Assembly: GCA_003249935.1 (NCBI GenBank)
Contig: QKHT01000016.1
Coordinates: 1-52,657, forward strand
Source of the DNA: Bacteroidota bacterium
GTDB lineage: Bacteria > Bacteroidota > Bacteroidia > Bacteroidales > UBA5342
Reading direction: 5' to 3'
Length of the DNA stretch: 52,657 nt
Below the pieces are notes generated by a model, which saw nothing but the letters and a program-made list of their open reading frames with translations, did not search any database and had not been told where the DNA came from. Made by a program: the position numbers and the translations under genes. Of this stretch, positions 4,691 to 48,345 are shown in pieces. How positions within the stretch are numbered: position 1 is the first letter of the stretch; the number at the start of each line of letters is the position of its first letter.

Positions 4691-5212
4691 TTATTTCGAA
4701 TATCCTAATTTGGCCAAAACTTCATCGCTAATATCGTATTTGGGATTGCCATAAATCAGGCTCTGATTACGGGCTTTATCCCAAATTGCCACATAATCTT
4801 TGGCATCCGCAATCTCTTTTATTGCATTAAATACTTCGTCTTGAATTGGTTTTACCAAGCTTTCACGTTTTTTAAACAGTTCACCTTCTGGACCAAAGTA
4901 TTTCTTCTTAAGTTCCATTCCCTCTTTTTCTTTGGCTACAATTTCGTTTTCACGCTTTACCTTGGCATCTTCCGATAGAAATACAAGATCGTTTTGATAT
5001 GTTTTATACATTTTCTTTACCTCATCCATAATCAAATCCACCTCTTGCTGCCACTTCTGCGAAGCTTTATCTAATTGATCTTGCGCAGCCTGATAAGCCG
5101 GTACATTCTTCAGAATATATTCCGAATCGATGAATGCATACTTTTGTGCCATGCCAATTCCAAAAGATGAAATCAGCAGAATTGTTGAAATAATTAATCG
5201 TTTCATTGCCAT
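4691..5212 (-). CDS. OmpH/Skp-family periplasmic chaperone (first copy)
   Basis: The product (173 residues) has a signal peptide ending at MAQ, the mature start KYAFIDSEYILKNVPAY, a charged coiled-coil from about residue 40 to 125 and the closing strand DYVAIWDKARNQSLIYGNP. It should act as a periplasmic holdase feeding the BAM complex, whose core subunit is encoded immediately upstream. Two starts are possible, ATG 5212 or ATG 5206; both give the same mature protein. The tandem arrangement with a second, different copy is typical of Bacteroidota. Confidence 0.92.
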   Translation of the reverse strand: MAMKRLIISTILLISSFGIGMAQKYAFIDSEYILKNVPAYQAAQDQLDKASQKWQQEVDLIMDEVKKMYKTYQNDLVFLSEDAKVKRENEIVAKEKEGMELKKKYFGPEGELFKKRESLVKPIQDEVFNAIKEIADAKDYVAIWDKARNQSLIYGNPKYDISDEVLAKLGYSK

Positions 5213-5251
5213 GTTTTTTTTTAATTATAGCAAATATCTTGCCAAATATTA

Positions 5252-7909
5252 CTAGAATTGTTGACCGATAATAAAGTGGAAATTCGATTTATTAGAGCCG
5301 GGACTTGTAACTACTTCATCAAAGCCATAACCCCAGTCAATACCCATCATACCAAACATTGGTAAAAAGATACGTAAGCCCATTCCCGCCGAACGATAAA
5401 GATTAAATGGGTTGAAGTCTTTTCTGCTTGCCCATGCATTACCCGCCTCCAGAAATCCTAAAGCATAAATGGTCGAAGATGTTTCGAGCATAATCGGATA
5501 GTGGAGCTCAAGTGTTAACCGATTGTAAATGTTGCCATCGTACGAAGTCCCTGTACTGTTGTACGGTGTTAGCGAGTTGTTCTTATAGCCTCTTAGGCCA
5601 ACGGTTTCGGTGCCATATAAGCTATATCCCGACATTCCATCACCTCCTAAAGTGAACTTTTCAAAAGGAGAGGTGAGTTTGTCGTTATAAGCCCCTAAAA
5701 AGCCATATTCCGCTCTGGCCATTAATATTAGCTTTTGATTTGGTGTAAGCGGCGTGTATGATACTGCTTTGAATTTCCATTTATGGTACTCGATAAACTT
5801 GTACATATCTTGCAAGGCTATATCCCGATCGGCCGAAGGTAAAGTCTTATCGATTGACTTGGCATACAGTCCATCGTAATCTTTGTTCGAAAACAACGAA
5901 TAAGGGGGCGTAAACTGAACCGATAATGAGAAACTTGAACCTTTACGTGTGAAAATCGGATTGTCGATCGAACTGCGACTCAACGAGGTACTTAAACTTA
6001 CAATTGTCGATTTCCCTGTTTGGAAGCCTAACATATTCCAGTTACGAAGATTGTAATGTTGGTACGACAATTCGTTGAACAACGTAAAATAGTCGTCGGG
6101 CCAGCTTAACCGCTTACCAAAGCCTACCGATGCACCCCAAACCTTGTTGTACTGATCGGGATTTGGATCGTAAAACGACATGTAATCGTACTGACTGCCT
6201 CCATAACTGCTGCCATAGCCTCCATAACCATAACCACCATAACTGCCATAACCGTATGGATTGCTATAATTCGAATTTTGACTCACCCCGGTTTGTATAG
6301 AACGGTAAACCGAAAGCGAAAAACTGTTTGGCCTTTTCCCGCCTAACCATGGATCGCTAAAAGAAAAACTGAACGACTTGTAAAACGAACCATTACTTTG
6401 AGCCCTAATGCTGAGCGACTGTCCGTCGCCTTGTGGCAGCGGACTATATGAACTTTTATCCAAAATATTGCGCAACGAAAAATTATTAAACGACAACCCG
6501 ATAGTTCCAACAAACATACCTGCACCCCAGCCTCCTGAAAGTTCGAGCTGGTCGGTTGGCTTTTCCTCCAGACCATACACAATATCCACAGTGCCATCTT
6601 CGGGATTTGGTTTTGGAACCGGATTGATTTTTTCGGGGTTAAAATGATTTAAATTTGCCAACTCTCTCACAGACCGTATCAATTCGGCTTTACTGAATAA
6701 ATCACCCGGTTTGGTACGTAATTCTCTGCGTACTACTTGCTCGTTTGTTCGGGTATTACCTTCAATAATTACTTGATTTATTGTTGCTTGAGGCCCTTCG
6801 ACAATACGCATTTCAAGGTCAATTGAGTCATTTTCGGCAACGACTTCAACCGGAACCAATCTGAAAAAAAGATACCCATTGTCCAGGTATAAATTGCTTA
6901 CAGCATCTTCGTCGTTGGTTAGTCTGTCGTTTAGCATCTTTTGATTGTAAACATCACCTTTGTTTATTCGTAACGAATGCTGTAATTCGGGTGTCGTGTA
7001 TTTTACATTTCCAACCCAGGATATATTCCTGATATGGTATTTATCTCCTTCCGATAGACTAAGGTATACATCAACGGTGTTTTCATCCTTCCCTTTAACT
7101 ACGCTGTCCGATAAAATTACGGCATCTCTGTAACCAAGCTCATTATATTTGTCTATCAATGCTGCTTTATCTTCTTCATATTTATCCTTTATATACTTTT
7201 TGGTTCTGAAGAAATTTAAAAGCTCACCTTTTGCGTTGGTCTTTTTCATCGTACTGTTTATTTTGTTGTACGACAAGTGTTTATTGCCTGTAATAATGAG
7301 ATTAGCTACTTTAACCTTTTGTTTTTTATCTACATAAATATCTACCGCAACACTGTTTTCTTTATTTAATTCATCCTTCTGAGCTACTTTTACTACCACA
7401 TTGGTAAATCCTTTGTCAACAAAGTGTGCCTTTATAACTTTTTCGGTATTGTTAATTAAATTTGGCGTAACCTGCGACCCTTTAATCATTTGTATTTTTG
7501 CCTCAAGATCAGAAATTTCCGATTTTTTTAATCCGTGGTAATAAATATTGTCGAGCCTTGGACGTTCTTGTAATTCTATTTTTATAAAAACTGTACTCCC
7601 CGAGATGCTATCAGCCACAATCGAAACATCCGAAAACAACCCATGTTTCCAGTACTTTTTTACCGCTTCTGTAATCTCATCACCCGGTATTTGAATCTCT
7701 TGCCCTACTGATAAACCCGAAAGGTTAATAAGCAGATTCTCTTCGTAGTGTTTAATCCCTTCGACTTTAATTCCGCCAATGGTATATTGTTTAGGCGATG
7801 AATAATATATTTCGGGGGCGATATTTTTTTGTGCTGAACCATCTTGTGCCTTAGAAATGCAAAATACTGTGGTGACTAATAAAAATATCAGGTGAAATTT
7901 TTTAACCAT
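5252..7909 (-). CDS. bamA: Outer-membrane protein assembly factor BamA
   Basis: BamA inserts beta-barrel proteins into the outer membrane. The 885-residue product has a signal peptide (residues 1-22, ending SKAQ), about five POTRA domains (to roughly residue 430; for example IGGIKVEGIKHYEE and INQVIIEGNTRTNE) and a C-terminal Omp85 barrel with GLRGYKNNSL and MMGIDWGYGFDE, ending in Phe as expected for barrel proteins. A Gly/Tyr-rich, low-complexity insert occupies about residues 545-575 in a barrel loop. The start at 7909 is chosen because it gives a proper signal peptide and begins 10 bases after uppS; an in-frame ATG at 7942 would overlap uppS. The ompH genes follow. Confidence 0.95.
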   Translation of the reverse strand: MVKKFHLIFLLVTTVFCISKAQDGSAQKNIAPEIYYSSPKQYTIGGIKVEGIKHYEENLLINLSGLSVGQEIQIPGDEITEAVKKYWKHGLFSDVSIVADSISGSTVFIKIELQERPRLDNIYYHGLKKSEISDLEAKIQMIKGSQVTPNLINNTEKVIKAHFVDKGFTNVVVKVAQKDELNKENSVAVDIYVDKKQKVKVANLIITGNKHLSYNKINSTMKKTNAKGELLNFFRTKKYIKDKYEEDKAALIDKYNELGYRDAVILSDSVVKGKDENTVDVYLSLSEGDKYHIRNISWVGNVKYTTPELQHSLRINKGDVYNQKMLNDRLTNDEDAVSNLYLDNGYLFFRLVPVEVVAENDSIDLEMRIVEGPQATINQVIIEGNTRTNEQVVRRELRTKPGDLFSKAELIRSVRELANLNHFNPEKINPVPKPNPEDGTVDIVYGLEEKPTDQLELSGGWGAGMFVGTIGLSFNNFSLRNILDKSSYSPLPQGDGQSLSIRAQSNGSFYKSFSFSFSDPWLGGKRPNSFSLSVYRSIQTGVSQNSNYSNPYGYGSYGGYGYGGYGSSYGGSQYDYMSFYDPNPDQYNKVWGASVGFGKRLSWPDDYFTLFNELSYQHYNLRNWNMLGFQTGKSTIVSLSTSLSRSSIDNPIFTRKGSSFSLSVQFTPPYSLFSNKDYDGLYAKSIDKTLPSADRDIALQDMYKFIEYHKWKFKAVSYTPLTPNQKLILMARAEYGFLGAYNDKLTSPFEKFTLGGDGMSGYSLYGTETVGLRGYKNNSLTPYNSTGTSYDGNIYNRLTLELHYPIMLETSSTIYALGFLEAGNAWASRKDFNPFNLYRSAGMGLRIFLPMFGMMGIDWGYGFDEVVTSPGSNKSNFHFIIGQQF

Positions 7910-37067: not shown

Positions 37068-37784
37068 ATGGAATGGACTTCGCGAACTGAACTTCTTTTT
37101 GGGAAAGAAGCGGTTGAAAAATTAAAAGAAAAAAATGTATTGGTAGTTGGCTTGGGTGGAGTTGGTGGTCATTGTGCCGAAATGTTATGTCGTGCAGGGA
37201 TTGGAAAACTTACGATTGTAGATGGCGATGTGGTTCAGCCTTCTAATATAAACAGGCAATTGGTGGCTATGCCCGAGAACATAAATCTTCGCAAGTGCAA
37301 TGTTCTTGCAGAGCGTCTTAAAGGGATAAATCCCCAACTGGAATTAACGGTGCTGTTTGAATATATCGAAAATCAAATAACCGAGCAGTTGTTAGACAGT
37401 CAGTCATTCGATTATGTGGTGGATGCAATTGATACATTAACTCCCAAATCGTTTCTTATTTTACATACACTAAATCGTAATATACCAATTGCTTCGTCCA
37501 TGGGTGCCGGAGGAAAGATCGACCCCACGAAAGTAACGATTACAGATATATCGAAAACAAGTACTTGTGCCTTAGCTCGTTCGGTGCGAAAACGGTTAGG
37601 TTCATTAGGTATTAAAAAAGGCGTAAAAGTTGTTTTTTCTACTGAACCGGTTAATAAAGATGCTGTTATTTTGGATGAGGAGTCGGAAAATAAACGGTCG
37701 ACTGTTGGTACGGTATCTTATATGCCGGCAGTATTTGGTTGTATGCTTGCCTCAATTGTTATTCGCGACTTAGTAAATGGTTAA
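37068..37784 (+). CDS. tcdA: tRNA threonylcarbamoyladenosine dehydratase
   Basis: This E1-like enzyme cyclises t6A37 of tRNAs to ct6A using ATP. The 238-residue product has the nucleotide motif VVGLGGVGGHCAEML (residues 26-40), IVDGDVVQPSNINRQ, YVVDAIDTLTPKSFLI and SSMGAGGKIDPTKV, the TcdA/YgdL pattern rather than MoeB or ThiF. The catalytic cysteine region (TSTCALARSVRKRL) is present. Its stop codon overlaps that of the convergent regulator by three bases (TTAA). Confidence 0.93.
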   Translation: MEWTSRTELLFGKEAVEKLKEKNVLVVGLGGVGGHCAEMLCRAGIGKLTIVDGDVVQPSNINRQLVAMPENINLRKCNVLAERLKGINPQLELTVLFEYIENQITEQLLDSQSFDYVVDAIDTLTPKSFLILHTLNRNIPIASSMGAGGKIDPTKVTITDISKTSTCALARSVRKRLGSLGIKKGVKVVFSTEPVNKDAVILDEESENKRSTVGTVSYMPAVFGCMLASIVIRDLVNG

Positions 37785-38944
37785 AGTTGATTTATTGTAT
37801 ACATTTTTACGTCTTCGGCCGTTACTTCATCGGTGCACAATATCATAAGGCGTTCTACAATATTCCGAAGTTCACGGATGTTTCCACTGTACTTTAATGC
37901 ACAGAGTGCTTCGATTGCATCATCGGAAAAGGTTATCATCTTCATAGACTGTTCTTCGGCAATTTGTTCGTTAAAATAGTTGATTAACAATGGTATATCG
38001 TTAGTTCTTTCTCGTAAAGGCGGAACATGAATTAAAATAACGCTAAGTCGATGATAAAGATCTTCCCGAAATCGTTGAGATGAAATTTCATCTGTAAGTA
38101 TTTTATTTGTCGCAGCCAAAACTCTTACATTCACTTTAATTGGTGTATCGCTCCCTACTCTGGTTATTACTTTTTCTTGCAATGCCCGAAGTACTTTTGC
38201 TTGTGCCGAAAGGCTCATGTCGCCAATTTCATCTAGAAACAAGGTGCCGCCGTCGGCTTGTTCAAATTTACCCTTACGTTGTTTAATTGCTGAGGTAAAT
38301 GCCCCTTTTTCATGGCCGAATAGTTCGCTTTCAATAAGTTCGGATGGTATGGCTGCACAATTTACTTCTATAAAAGGTTGTGTATTTCTGGGGCTCATTT
38401 CGTGAATTAACCGAGCGATAACTTCCTTTCCGGTGCCGTTTTCACCAGTAATTAAAACCCTGGCATCTGTTGGTGCTACACGTTCGAGTATTGATCGAAC
38501 ATGGTGAATGGGTTCGCTGTTTCCAATCATTTCGTATTTGCGCGAAATTTTCTTTCGGAGTACTTTGGTTTCTTCAATTAGTCCTTTACGGTCGATGCCA
38601 TTTTTTACTGTTATCAGCAACCTGTTTAAATCAATTGGTTTCTGAATGAAATCGAAAGCTCCTTTTTTTATGGCATCAACAGCAGTTTCGATATCACCAT
38701 GACCCGAAATCATTATAAATTGAGCATCCGGTTTTTCCTGACGTGAAGTTTGTAAAAGCTCCAAACCGTCTATTCCGGGCATTTTTATATCGCATAGAAC
38801 GAGGTCATAGTTATTCAAACGCATTTTTTCAAGTCCATCAAGTCCATCAATGGCTAAGTCTATCTCGTATTTTTCGTATTCGAGAATATCCTTAAGTGTA
38901 TTCCTTATGCTTCTTTCGTCGTCAATTACAAGAATTCGGGCCAT
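37781..38944 (-). CDS. NtrC-type response regulator lacking a DNA-binding domain
   Basis: The 387-residue product has a receiver domain (residues 1-120; acidic pair Asp8/Asp9, phosphoacceptor Asp52 in LCDIKMPG, Lys102 in QKP) and a sigma-54-activating AAA+ domain (about 135-370; Walker A GENGTGKE 167-174, GAFTSA loop 214-219, Walker B GGTLFLDEIGD). It stops at YTINQL just after the AAA+ lid, where the Fis-type HTH should begin. It may work from solution, or with a partner. GAFTSA replaces GAFTGA. No sensor kinase is adjacent. A TATATTTG element lies upstream. Confidence 0.9.
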   Translation of the reverse strand: MARILVIDDERSIRNTLKDILEYEKYEIDLAIDGLDGLEKMRLNNYDLVLCDIKMPGIDGLELLQTSRQEKPDAQFIMISGHGDIETAVDAIKKGAFDFIQKPIDLNRLLITVKNGIDRKGLIEETKVLRKKISRKYEMIGNSEPIHHVRSILERVAPTDARVLITGENGTGKEVIARLIHEMSPRNTQPFIEVNCAAIPSELIESELFGHEKGAFTSAIKQRKGKFEQADGGTLFLDEIGDMSLSAQAKVLRALQEKVITRVGSDTPIKVNVRVLAATNKILTDEISSQRFREDLYHRLSVILIHVPPLRERTNDIPLLINYFNEQIAEEQSMKMITFSDDAIEALCALKYSGNIRELRNIVERLMILCTDEVTAEDVKMYTINQL

Positions 38945-44549: not shown

Positions 44550-45953
44550 TCATATCTCAATATTGAATTTTGTTAAGCGGCGGTCCAATGCATTCCATTT
44601 TATGTTTAGCATTTGGGCCGCTTTGCTTTTGTTGTTTTCACAAATCTGCAATACTTTAATAATTGTCTGTTTTTCAAGTTCTTCGAGGTCGTAAATGTCG
44701 CAGCAATCGATGCCCGTAACAATCTGGTTTGAACCATCAATTGGTTGTGTCGTCGATTGGCTGCAAATGTCGGGAAAATGAGCTTTTCCCAAAATCTTTC
44801 CATCCGTAAGAATCATCGCACGCTCTATAAGATTTCTCAGTTCTCTCACATTTCCCGGAAATGAATAATTGGATAGTTCTTTTAGTGCATCTTTTTCTAT
44901 ACGTTCAATCTTTATTCTCATTTTACCCGAAAAATGATTAATAAAGTGGTTCACTAAAATAGGAATGTCTTCTCTTCTCTCTCTAAGCGGCGGAATATTT
45001 ATTATAAATGCTGCAATCCGGTGATATAGGTCGGTACGCAGCGTTTTGCCGGAAGCTAATTCTTCTTTAGTTTTGTTTGTTGCTGCAATAATTCTTACGT
45101 CAAATGGTATTTCTTTGCTTGAACCCACTTTAGAGTATTTTCGTTCTTCCAGTGCGCGTAACAGTTTTACTTGCAGCATTTCGGGTAAATCGCCGATTTC
45201 ATCTAAAAACATGGTGCCTTTATTAGCCACTTCAAGCCAACCGGCTTTGTCGGCGACTGCACCGGTAAAAGAACCTTTAGTATGCCCAAAAAATTCACTT
45301 TCAAAGAGCGTATCCTGTATAGCCGGGGTGTTTACTGCACCAAAGTAAAAGGGTGCTCTTTCGCTAAATTGGTGAATACCCTTAGCAACAAGCTCTTTTC
45401 CGGTTCCACTCTCACCAGTTATCAAAACTGAAGTGTCACGACTTTTCGAAACCTTTATTATCAAAGATTTTACTTGTTTTGCACTTGAACTTTCGCCAAT
45501 GAATGAAACGCCTTCTATTTCAGCCAAATCATCTTTTAGTCTCGCAGTTTGTTTGTTGAGCCGGTTAAGATCATTAAAAAGTACTTTCATCCTCATCGCC
45601 CTTTCCAATGAAATATTGACGCTATCTGTAGAAAAAGGCTTACACAAAAAATCTATTGCACCATTACGCATTGCACCGATAATGGTATCTGAATCGGTAT
45701 GAGAACTTACCATCACCACCAGAACATCCGGAAAATTTTCTCTTATGATGGAAAGGATCTGATGTCCATTCATTCCCGGCAAAGAATAATCACAAAATAC
45801 AAAATCAATGCTTTGGTCGTTCAGAATTTCGAAAGCATGTTTTGCTTCGTAGGCATTGTAAATCGTGATGTCAGTGTTTAATGATGATTTTATCATTTCG
45901 TGTATGATTTCGTCATCATCAATAATCAGTAATTTAAACGGGGTGTCATTCAT
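44550..45953 (-). CDS. NtrC-family sigma-54 response regulator
   Basis: The 467-residue product is a complete activator of sigma-54 promoters: receiver domain (residues 1-125; phosphoacceptor Asp55 in FCDYSLPG), AAA+ domain (about 150-385; Walker A GESGTGKE 180-187, GSFTGA loop 227-232, GTMFLDEIGD) and a C-terminal Fis-type HTH (about 425-467; IIKVLQICENNKSKAAQMLNIKWNALDRRL). It is convergent with the methyltransferase, leaving only 9 bases, and divergent from the LruC lipoprotein, whose upstream region carries a sigma-54-like promoter it might control. No histidine kinase is adjacent. Confidence 0.95.
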   Translation of the reverse strand: MNDTPFKLLIIDDDEIIHEMIKSSLNTDITIYNAYEAKHAFEILNDQSIDFVFCDYSLPGMNGHQILSIIRENFPDVLVVMVSSHTDSDTIIGAMRNGAIDFLCKPFSTDSVNISLERAMRMKVLFNDLNRLNKQTARLKDDLAEIEGVSFIGESSSAKQVKSLIIKVSKSRDTSVLITGESGTGKELVAKGIHQFSERAPFYFGAVNTPAIQDTLFESEFFGHTKGSFTGAVADKAGWLEVANKGTMFLDEIGDLPEMLQVKLLRALEERKYSKVGSSKEIPFDVRIIAATNKTKEELASGKTLRTDLYHRIAAFIINIPPLRERREDIPILVNHFINHFSGKMRIKIERIEKDALKELSNYSFPGNVRELRNLIERAMILTDGKILGKAHFPDICSQSTTQPIDGSNQIVTGIDCCDIYDLEELEKQTIIKVLQICENNKSKAAQMLNIKWNALDRRLTKFNIEI

Positions 45954-46263
45954 GAGCTTTGTATTATCTGGTTGTAAATATAGTTAAAAGTCATTTGTGA
46001 AAATACTAAAATGTTTAGACCTAAGTCGTTTAATTGAAATTTTAAGTTTTAATTAATATAATAATTTGCTGTTTTCAATTAATTATTGTAAAATTGATAA
46101 TAAATAAACATGAAATAGTTAGCTGATCATTTATTAATTATAAAAATCTTCATTTTCGAATAATAGTTTATGTGTGTTAGTTCGGTTAATATGTTGATAT
46201 ATAGTCTGATAAAGTTTGTGGCACATTATTTGTTTTTTGTATTTCAGAATAAAAAAGAAGAAT
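45954..46263. other. AT-rich divergent regulatory region
   Basis: This 310-base gap separates the NtrC regulator from the LruC lipoprotein gene. It is strongly AT-rich with several partial palindromes containing TTAATTA (near 46049-46056, 46076-46088 and 46131-46143), possible activator sites, and ends with the sigma-54-like element at 46219-46233. No ORF or RNA is credible. Confidence 0.5.
46219..46233 (+). promoter_or_regulatory. Sigma-54-like promoter upstream of the LruC lipoprotein
   Basis: TGGCAC (46219-46224), five bases, TTGT (46230-46233) matches the sigma-54 consensus TGGCAC-N5-TTGC at all but the last position. The start of transcription would be near 46244, 20 bases before ATG 46264. 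The neighbouring divergent gene encodes a full NtrC-type activator. Confidence 0.5.
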
Positions 46264-48345
46264 ATGAATATTATGAATTTGTTTAGAAAGTTTTCAATGC
46301 TAATTGCAGCAGGAGTTGTTGCAGTATCTTGCGTAGACGAGAACAATATCAGCAATAACCCAATTGTTGAAGAAGGTCCATTCTCGAAATATTTTGATTG
46401 GAAAACTACGCAACAGGTTGAATTAAAGCTTACTGTACTCAATGCTGGTAACGAGGCCTTGGAAAGTATCCCTTTAGCCGTTTATACTAAAAATCCGTTT
46501 GTTATTACATCTGAAGGTCAGGAAATAATGGGCGATAGTAGTTCGGAAAACATGGTTTTTAAAGGGATGACAGATGGTAATGGTAAAATCGAACTACCTT
46601 TAACAGTGGCTTCGCGATTCGATTCATTATTTGTTGCCACAACTTTCCCCGGTGTTCCCACGCTTACACCAATCGTTATTCGTAATCACTCGGCTGAAAT
46701 TGTAATTGGTGGTTCGGCAATTGCATCGAAAGCTGTTGTACGTAAGTCAGTAAATCTGGGTGCTGTTCCAACAGGATTTGGCAGCCTTGGTACTTGGAAC
46801 AGCGTGGGGCGACCAACCTATCTTACTGCACCCGATGCAATTACCGCAGACTTTCTTGCCGTAGTAAATAATTCACTTCCGGAGTATGTTCAGTTGCCCA
46901 TTTCACATCCTGAATATTTGGCAAAGGGCAGTGAAGCAAACGTTATTGTTAAGGAAAGGGCCGAAGTTTGGATTACTTTTGTAAATGAAGGTGCCGGTTG
47001 GTTAAACTCACTTTGCTATTTTTATTACAACACCAATAATCCTCCAAAAACAGCGAGCGAAATCAAAAATATGTATGTCGTATTTCCGAACGTTTCGATT
47101 ACATCATCGAATAGTCCGCTAATCTCGGGCGACAAGGTTCAACTTAAATACTACGATGAAACCACTAAGGCATTTACGAATATTTGGCCTGCAAATGTAA
47201 CCATTGGGTGGTGTTTACTTGCCAATGGATTCAGTTCAAGTTCAGGTAATGTAACAGTTGGTACGCACAAAGTATATTCAATCCCCGAGTTCAATCCGGA
47301 GTCAAGTGCTGATTTGAAGAAACACACCGTTTTGCTCTATGATAAAAACCGTCAGCGTTTAGTTATTGGTTTGGAAGATATGCGTAGAGATCAGGGTAGT
47401 GATAACGACTTTAATGATGCAGTATTTTACGCAACAGCCAATCCGATAACCGCAATTGAAACCGGTAATTTGCCGGCAGTAGATACTCCAAAAGATGAAG
47501 ATGGTGATGGTGTATCGGATAAATATGACGAGTATCCAAAGGATCCTGAGCGCGCATTCAACAACTATTATCCGTCAAATAAGCGGTTTGGAACTTTAGC
47601 ATTTGAAGATTTGTGGCCATCAAAGGGCGATTACGACTTCAACGATATGGTCCTTGATTATCAATATAAATATGTGACAAATGTTCGGAACGAGGTAGTT
47701 GACTTAAATGCAAACTTTTTGTTGCGAGCCAGAGGCGCAGCATATAATAATGGGTTCGCGATCATGTTGCCAATTAATCAAAATAAGGTAAAGTCTGTTT
47801 CTGGACAAAAAATAACTTCAGATGTGTTTAAATTAAATGCCAATGGCGTTGAAAACAGTTTGACAGAGGAGGCAGTTATTCCGGTTTTTGATCAGGCCTC
47901 GTCGGTTTTACGTGATTGGAATACCGACCCGGTTCAGCCTAAAAAAACATCAGAAGCTGTTAATTTAACTATTAACCTTCAGTCGCCCTTGGCTTTATCC
48001 AAATTAGGCTCATTCCCATTAAATCCATTTGTTATCCGGAATAAAGAACGGAACGTTGAGATACATCTTCCGCATTCGATGCCTTCGGGTTATGCAAATA
48101 AAGACTTGTTTGGCAAGTATAATGATAGAACCGACCTTTCAAAAGGTATTTCATATGTGTCTGACGGTGGCTTGCCATGGGCTCTGGATATTGCGGATAG
48201 TTTTGTTTACCCAATTGAACGAACCCCGATTTTTAAAGCATATAATTTCTTTGAAACCTGGGCTGGTTCGAACGGTACAAAATATGCCGATTGGTATTTG
48301 GATAAAACCAACTATAGAAATAGCAAGGAATTGTATACCAAATAA
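46264..48345 (+). CDS. LruC-domain outer-membrane lipoprotein
   Basis: The 693-residue product has a lipoprotein signal peptide (MNIMNLFRKFSMLIAAGVV, then AVSC; lipobox Cys near residue 22). The middle contains a DUF4114-like motif (RDQGSDNDFNDAVFYA), then a thrombospondin-3-type calcium loop, DEDGDGVSDKYDEYPKDPERA (about residues 413-433). An LruC/DUF4842 domain begins FEDLWPSKGDYDFNDMVLDYQY and extends to the end. Such proteins are probably calcium-binding surface lipoproteins; no biochemical role is known. Start chosen for the lipobox. It is a single gene with a sigma-54-like promoter and a strong terminator. Confidence 0.88.
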   Translation: MNIMNLFRKFSMLIAAGVVAVSCVDENNISNNPIVEEGPFSKYFDWKTTQQVELKLTVLNAGNEALESIPLAVYTKNPFVITSEGQEIMGDSSSENMVFKGMTDGNGKIELPLTVASRFDSLFVATTFPGVPTLTPIVIRNHSAEIVIGGSAIASKAVVRKSVNLGAVPTGFGSLGTWNSVGRPTYLTAPDAITADFLAVVNNSLPEYVQLPISHPEYLAKGSEANVIVKERAEVWITFVNEGAGWLNSLCYFYYNTNNPPKTASEIKNMYVVFPNVSITSSNSPLISGDKVQLKYYDETTKAFTNIWPANVTIGWCLLANGFSSSSGNVTVGTHKVYSIPEFNPESSADLKKHTVLLYDKNRQRLVIGLEDMRRDQGSDNDFNDAVFYATANPITAIETGNLPAVDTPKDEDGDGVSDKYDEYPKDPERAFNNYYPSNKRFGTLAFEDLWPSKGDYDFNDMVLDYQYKYVTNVRNEVVDLNANFLLRARGAAYNNGFAIMLPINQNKVKSVSGQKITSDVFKLNANGVENSLTEEAVIPVFDQASSVLRDWNTDPVQPKKTSEAVNLTINLQSPLALSKLGSFPLNPFVIRNKERNVEIHLPHSMPSGYANKDLFGKYNDRTDLSKGISYVSDGGLPWALDIADSFVYPIERTPIFKAYNFFETWAGSNGTKYADWYLDKTNYRNSKELYTK

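Follow-up and report, generated by a model that had tools for sequence, protein, structure and literature searches.

The closest precedent for the control region described here is the PrsK/PrsR system, to which it does not belong. PrsK/PrsR controls PEP-CTERM genes. In the accessible text of its description, an enhancer motif (motif 1) is followed by a spacer with a mean of 63 nucleotides and by a sigma-54 motif (motif 2), in an exopolysaccharide context (PMC1569441). The gene pepA is RpoN-dependent, according to the accessible part of PMC9850573.

Within the same phylum as the present genome, the sigma-54 (SM4) regulon of F. psychrophilum offers another comparison. It has exported proteins, lipoproteins, groES-groEL and skp behind mapped -24/-12 promoters, which resembles the present case, but no LruC gene is among the promoters selected for Table 2A (PMC9723704). 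As far as its accessible text goes, that paper neither links an activator to any promoter nor reports an enhancer site. Two surveys are broader still, and are cited here from their accessible text. One from 2025, on sigma-54 regulons, discusses chaperones, proteases and transporters of Bacteroidota (PMC12316311), and one from 2011 links sigma-54 with the exterior of the bacterial cell, which there includes lipoproteins and exopolysaccharides (PMC3162934).

Literature on LruC/DUF4842, on sigma-54 in Bacteroidetes/Bacteroidota, on PrsR and on RpoN, in a search that covers few subscription papers, contained no description of an LruC module or its dyad. Nor did the accessible text show an enhancer site at which a Bacteroidota sigma-54 activator would bind. 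The same search found no report on the role of LruC (DUF4842) lipoproteins in Bacteroidota. A search for the letters of the dyad returned unrelated papers only.

The DNA analysed here, called the window, is a stretch of 52,657 nucleotides, which is contig 326 of a Bacteroidota draft genome (4.27 Mb, 326 contigs). In it, two genes diverge from an intergenic gap at 45954-46263. An NtrC-type response regulator of 467 amino acids lies on the reverse strand (44550-45953), and an LruC-domain lipoprotein of 693 amino acids on the forward strand (46264-48345). The gap is very probably an enhancer-dependent sigma-54 control region, in which the divergent regulator would bind a dyad and fire the LruC promoter.

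An earlier note on this DNA, made from the letters alone, had suggested a locally controlled, sigma-54-dependent surface lipoprotein. That reading is supported and stands, because rpoN is intact, box and dyad recur in relatives and the -24/-12 spacing is enriched. Two corrections apply, which concern the enhancer site and the final T of the box. The rpoN gene is found in the genome by PF04552 (E 1.3e-52), in a frame with ARRTVAKYRE.

The lipoprotein has its lipobox cysteine at Cys23, which is invariant in an alignment of 40 sequences that includes the window protein; ATG 46273 is an alternative start. The protein scores 231.8 bits against TIGR04456 (threshold 36), which makes it an LruC-domain protein, and this is its only NCBIfam match at E <= 0.001. 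It carries DUF4842 and DUF4114 domains (PF16130, PF13448). Its predicted structure is confident (pLDDT 89), and the closest known structure is that of an uncharacterised Bacteroides lipoprotein, 3oqq, which adds nothing on function. The gene stands alone, and is followed by convergent acyltransferase and glycosyltransferase genes on the opposite strand. LruC (DUF4842) proteins have a match at E <= 1e-40 in 66 of the 393 genomes of the order. Two genomes of the same family contain no match to the window protein, so there is no close relative for comparison.

The earlier note rightly called the divergent neighbour a full-length NtrC-type activator: it has receiver, Sigma54_activat, AAA lid and HTH_8 domains. 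This is the arrangement of NtrC/AtoC-type enhancer-binding proteins, with receiver, sigma-54 interaction (AAA+) domain and Fis-type HTH in one protein. By eye, and using the customary names of the receiver, Walker and loop motifs, the receiver has its acidic pair, acceptor Asp and Lys, the Walker motifs are intact and the loop reads GSFTGA where GAFTGA is expected. Unlike the described NtrC/AtoC types, the protein scores below the curated cut-off in all 25 NCBIfam families listed (113 matched), and it would have a dyad of its own, CTTCRTTTTCGAAG. A second NtrC-type response regulator is found in the window at 37781-38944 on the reverse strand; it has no C-terminal HTH, and GAFTSA for GAFTGA.

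The likeness to PrsK/PrsR is one of logic, as far as the accessible description of that system goes. Both have an NtrC-type response regulator with a Fis-family HTH, and both have an enhancer motif, a spacer and a -24/-12 box; the spacer after the dyad in the LruC module is 56-77 nucleotides, and has a mean of 63 there. Both also have exported surface proteins as (here predicted) targets and are associated with exopolysaccharide genes. There are differences as well. The targets are LruC lipoproteins and not PEP-CTERM proteins, the hosts are Bacteroidota and not Proteobacteria, and the window activator reaches 336.6 bits against PrsR (TIGR02915), which has a cut-off of 502.6. In addition, the kinases of one relative (L201) have PAS, GAF and receiver domains.

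Sigma-54 promoters have TGGCAY at -24 and TTG at -12 with five bases between them (GG-N10-G), and a C after the -12 G. The window box TGGCACATTATTTGT, which is TGGCAC-N5-TTGT with the spacer ATTAT, lies at 46219-46233 on the forward strand with 30 bases between it and ATG 46264. It matches TGGCAY-N5-TTG and has T instead of C after the -12 G; as the note had said, this last base is its sole mismatch to TGGCAC-N5-TTGC. The accompanying remark that no equally good match was seen elsewhere did not hold. There are five places in the window with one mismatch, this box included, of which one other is intergenic, at 5230-5244 on the reverse strand ahead of an OmpH/Skp gene, and three are inside reading frames.

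With up to two mismatches allowed, the window has 41 matches where 37 are expected. In the genome, exact TGGCAC-N5-TTGY occurs 22 times and its reversal 20 times, and for TTGGCAY-N5-TTGWW the numbers are 12 and 13. TGGCAY-N5-WTGC is found 70 times versus 18, with the excess mostly inside frames among the checked loci (L002-L046). Genome-wide box counts were therefore dropped as evidence. An approximate sigma-54 weight matrix, used for orientation only, gave p <= 0.05 in 14 of 49 regions. The box by itself does not stand out from chance, so the sigma-54 claim rests on comparison: conservation at homologous genes and the upstream dyad do exceed what chance would give.

For this comparison, LruC genes came from two sources: the 393 genomes of the order, in each of which no more than two candidates were scored, and 79 named loci. 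The named loci came from an alignment-based contig search, of which the best 80 of 549 candidates were used; an earlier contig search with a single protein as query had found no relatives. Start codons were set by a lipobox rule, and matches open at the end of a locus, five of them from the genomes of the order, were left out. Removal of identical protein starts leaves 180 distinct genes, where paralogues within genomes are not independent. The background consists of 509 neighbouring genes, for which the first ATG was taken, uncurated.

The first set has 110 genes, one of which is in it twice (L130 and L168). In the 150 bases before the start, 17 of these genes have TGGCAY-Nk-WTG with k=5, versus 0-3 for any other k (1-9). 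For the second set of 86 genes, which overlaps the first, the numbers are 16 with k=5 and 0-2 elsewhere. Merged, this becomes 27/180 at k=5 and 0-3 at other k, versus 6/509 and 1-3 in the background, and 0.34 expected from shuffled LruC upstream regions. In 25 of the 27 boxes, TGG is 24-76 bases before the start. The other 153 of the 180 genes lack a strict box, so sigma-54 control would be common in the LruC family and not universal.

The base after WTG, which the pattern leaves free, is never C in these boxes: 21 have A, 5 have T and 1 has G. Judged by these counts, the final T of the window box is a usual variant in the LruC family and no flaw. The canonical TTGC ending was seen at two places in another genome (G363, discussed below) and at an intergenic candidate on C61 of the own genome.

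That spacing dependence also bears on another explanation, in which the box is a chance match and transcription of the gene starts at an ordinary sigma-A promoter of Bacteroidota (TAnnTTTG). The lack of over-representation of TGGCAC-N5-TTGY in the genome would suit this, and there is a one-mismatch -7 element, AAAGTTTG, at 46211. No perfect TAnnTTTG exists in 45954-46263, however, and neither the spacing-specific enrichment nor the recurrence of dyad plus box at two paralogous loci is expected from a chance match. We consider the sigma-A explanation very unlikely.

Sigma-54 control would need a site for the activator. The earlier note had placed palindromes in the AT-rich gap, and the gap does have 21% G+C, with three TTAATTA within 300 bases upstream of the second ATG at 46273. 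These are not a conserved element: TTAATTA is absent from 10 of 13 comparison upstream regions of 300 bases each. What is kept in relatives with an activator of the same clade nearby is the box together with an upstream dyad. In L092/L207, the other divergent pair, box and dyad survive in degraded form only, with a box of TGGCAC-N5-TCG and CTTCACCAATGAAG as the best spaced dyad; it is the dyad and the -12 that are degraded.

This dyad, CTTCR-TTTT-CGAAG, is the second element shared by the upstream regions of LruC loci near such activators. Its consensus was judged by eye, on a portion of the same sequences in which it was later counted. The window copy CTTCATTTTCGAAT, at 46148-46161 on the forward strand, has one mismatch to the consensus. 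It is the only match in the window at up to one mismatch, where 0.05 is expected. Located 71 bases upstream of the box, it is a predicted upstream activator site of the kind a sigma-54 promoter should have, and it, instead of the TTAATTA palindromes, is the likely enhancer site.

Among the 180 LruC upstream regions, 10 have the dyad at up to one mismatch (0.05 in shuffles) and 15 at up to two (0.5 expected). In 13 of the 15 there is a box with at most one mismatch 70-91 bases downstream; the exceptions are L092 and L175. The distances fall into groups of 70-71, 78-80 and 89-91, to which C158 adds 77, G035 adds 91 and both G363 places add 79. These three groups are about one helical turn apart, in a phase test for which the range was chosen post hoc, the G363 copies were counted once and the weaker L092 dyad was used. 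Such phasing is what a loop joining fixed faces of the DNA should show.

The 13 genes with dyad and box include two in the own genome. Nine of the other 11 have an activator of the window's kind nearby, though at L199 and L093/L211 it is only partly visible. No such activator is present in the stretch examined for L208 and L269. In L203, the first of two LruC genes sits close behind the activator and has no dyad of its own.

Dyad and box can also be searched for jointly, as CTTCNTTTTYGAA-N48-78-TGGYAY-N6-TG. The window, C20, C158 and several relatives were already known when this pattern was defined; its new hits are G035, G363 (two) and G058. In the 393 genomes, it occurs at 8 places in 4 genomes, with 2 for the reversed control, and the window has one match versus none in 100 shuffles. 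Half of the eight places belong to the own genome, and each of these four is at an LruC locus (window, C20, C158 and C40). At C158, the promoter precedes a small lipoprotein gene that comes before the LruC-domain gene, which is why it is not among the 27 boxes or the 15 dyads above. The C40 place closely repeats the start of the C20 gene and is truncated by the contig end. A fourth LruC gene, on C194, has no composite or box that could be found.

The composites of G035 and G363 look like promoters, and that of G058 is inside a reading frame. A small secreted protein follows in G035 and at one G363 place; the second of the G363 places lies where a contig ends. The sequence TTCRTTTTCGAA has twelve exact matches in the own genome. 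Three of these (window, C20 and C40) have a box downstream; the other nine are in or at the edge of reading frames, with no box within 330 bases.

On the assembly itself, L319:115-193 (C40:102-193) and L057 repeat, almost without change, the LruC promoter of C20 and the beginning of its gene. As the assembly breaks at this second copy, the genome may hold one more LruC gene than was assembled.

Given that the region is divergent, one dyad could serve both genes, and the dyad might even be an autoregulatory operator of the activator gene only, with the LruC gene as a bystander. The recurrence of the dyad before the C20 and C158 LruC loci, where the neighbours are not activators and there is no strong PF00158 match, and its fixed phase from the box make this extremely improbable. 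The same recurrence before two more LruC loci and the contig-end copy is why the activator instead seems dedicated to LruC surface lipoproteins.

It could also be that the lipoprotein is sigma-54-dependent, but activated by a different enhancer-binding protein of the genome, with the divergent activator a chance neighbour. There are candidates for this role: PF00158 is matched over its cut-off seven times in the genome, and two of the five strong matches are in the window. Most LruC genes of the named set, moreover, lack such an activator in the stretch examined.

The tree argues for the divergent activator. It groups the window protein with activators near LruC genes, with support 99/97, apart from the genome's other four. 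The clade has members from Paludibacter, Porphyromonadaceae, Marinilabiliaceae and other Bacteroidales records, and in several named genomes they are near LruC genes that bear the dyad. Ten such activators, two of them partial and outside the tree, share the recognition helix WNALxRR.

Neighbours from outside the clade behave differently. L224, L225, L248 and L251 have unrelated NtrC-type regulators near their LruC genes, and no dyad at up to two mismatches. The activator of L094, just outside the clade, has VQSLIRR in its recognition helix, and the region upstream of its LruC gene has different dyads, of the TTACGATTTCGTAA type (by eye). This locus has, at L094:3930-4060 upstream of the LruC gene, three dyads of the TTACGAWWTCGTAA type, one of which carries a base change; activator and site have possibly changed together there.

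G035 is informative because it was found by the composite pattern alone and was not used for the motif. It has an activator of the same clade within the same cluster, near a dyad, and its target is a different gene, in a DUF4402-type locus (so named from the Pfam match of 4865-5392, not from the small target gene). Since the clade activator keeps the dyad with another target, and loci with outside-clade activators lack it, the dyad by this comparison follows the activator rather than the target. Activation by another protein of the genome is thus unlikely.

In relatives, the neighbourhood adds kinases and exopolysaccharide genes. The order in L200, L201, L215 and L217 is a large kinase, a receiver-kinase, the activator, dyad plus box, and one to three LruC genes, followed by a single receiver and a sugar transferase (cut in L200). 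In longer loci, efflux-like, Wzz-like and flippase genes come next. A domain scan of L201 yields a hybrid PAS/GAF kinase, receiver-kinase, activator, receiver, sugar transferase and efflux-like protein; scans also identify the Wzz-like and flippase genes of L215 and an O-antigen ligase/polymerase in L278. The remaining assignments are by gene order, length and similarity. Of the named loci, 66 extend for 2.5 kb or more beyond the LruC gene, and in 8 of these both receiver and sugar transferase are downstream. In these relatives, the module of dyad and box would head exopolysaccharide operons.

The own genome is arranged differently. The relatives' sugar transferase has only partial matches, the best-scoring one 45% identical, so it was rejected as having an orthologue here and a co-regulated polysaccharide operon is not supported. 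No kinase gene adjoins the window activator. The receiver-kinase does have a full-length match (39%) on C3, behind a PAS/GAF hybrid kinase of 1489 amino acids, in a pair that ends at the contig end. This pair is the likely partner of the window activator, in trans.

Put together, the divergent activator would work as follows. A signal sensed by the kinase pair would lead to phosphorylation of the activator, with the phosphate probably coming from a hybrid kinase of several domains and a receiver-kinase, whose genes are not beside that of the activator. The phosphorylated activator would bind the dyad, and looping of the DNA, over about seven turns, would let its AAA+ ring contact the RNA polymerase-sigma-54 at the box. 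Remodelling of this polymerase would open the LruC promoter, with a transcription start predicted near 46245. The output would be LruC lipoproteins at the surface of the cell; relatives would probably make exopolysaccharide along with them.

The genome has further candidate sigma-54 promoters. Before groES-groEL (C253, L315:17547-17562), TTGGCACACTATCTGT is found some 55 bases ahead of groES with a -12 that ends in T. It is likely a sigma-54 promoter; in F. psychrophilum, these genes have a mapped one, according to the accessible part of PMC9723704. On the reverse strand of the window, TGGCAAGATATTTGC at 5230-5244 closely follows an Omp85/BamA-like gene, and 17 bases separate it from an OmpH/Skp gene (4691-5212) downstream. 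Because the skp promoter of F. psychrophilum has been mapped as sigma-54-dependent (PMC9723704, Table 2), this box may be a conserved sigma-54 promoter.

Without a dyad, TTGGCACGATAGTTGAA precedes a DUF2807 (GIN-domain) lipoprotein-like gene (L133/L320, C6:17771-17787), which is possibly another sigma-54 target with a different activator. The C61 candidate (L043, C61:13429-13443, reverse strand) is TGGCATAAAAATTGC, with a canonical -12; it is non-coding and 22 bases before a 492-codon frame.

As a tentative proposal, with a chance somewhat short of even, this may be a Bacteroidota counterpart of PrsK/PrsR. A kinase pair, an activator and its dyad would control sigma-54 promoters, with a -12 that often ends in A or T, for LruC lipoproteins and exopolysaccharide, and elsewhere for a DUF4402-type surface locus. 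The LruC proteins would then be matrix- or polysaccharide-linked surface partners, by parallel with the role thought for PEP-CTERM proteins in Proteobacteria. With a defined activator, site, promoter and target set, the predicted circuit is testable by one deletion and one reporter. It would tie LruC lipoproteins to exopolysaccharide genes in relatives.
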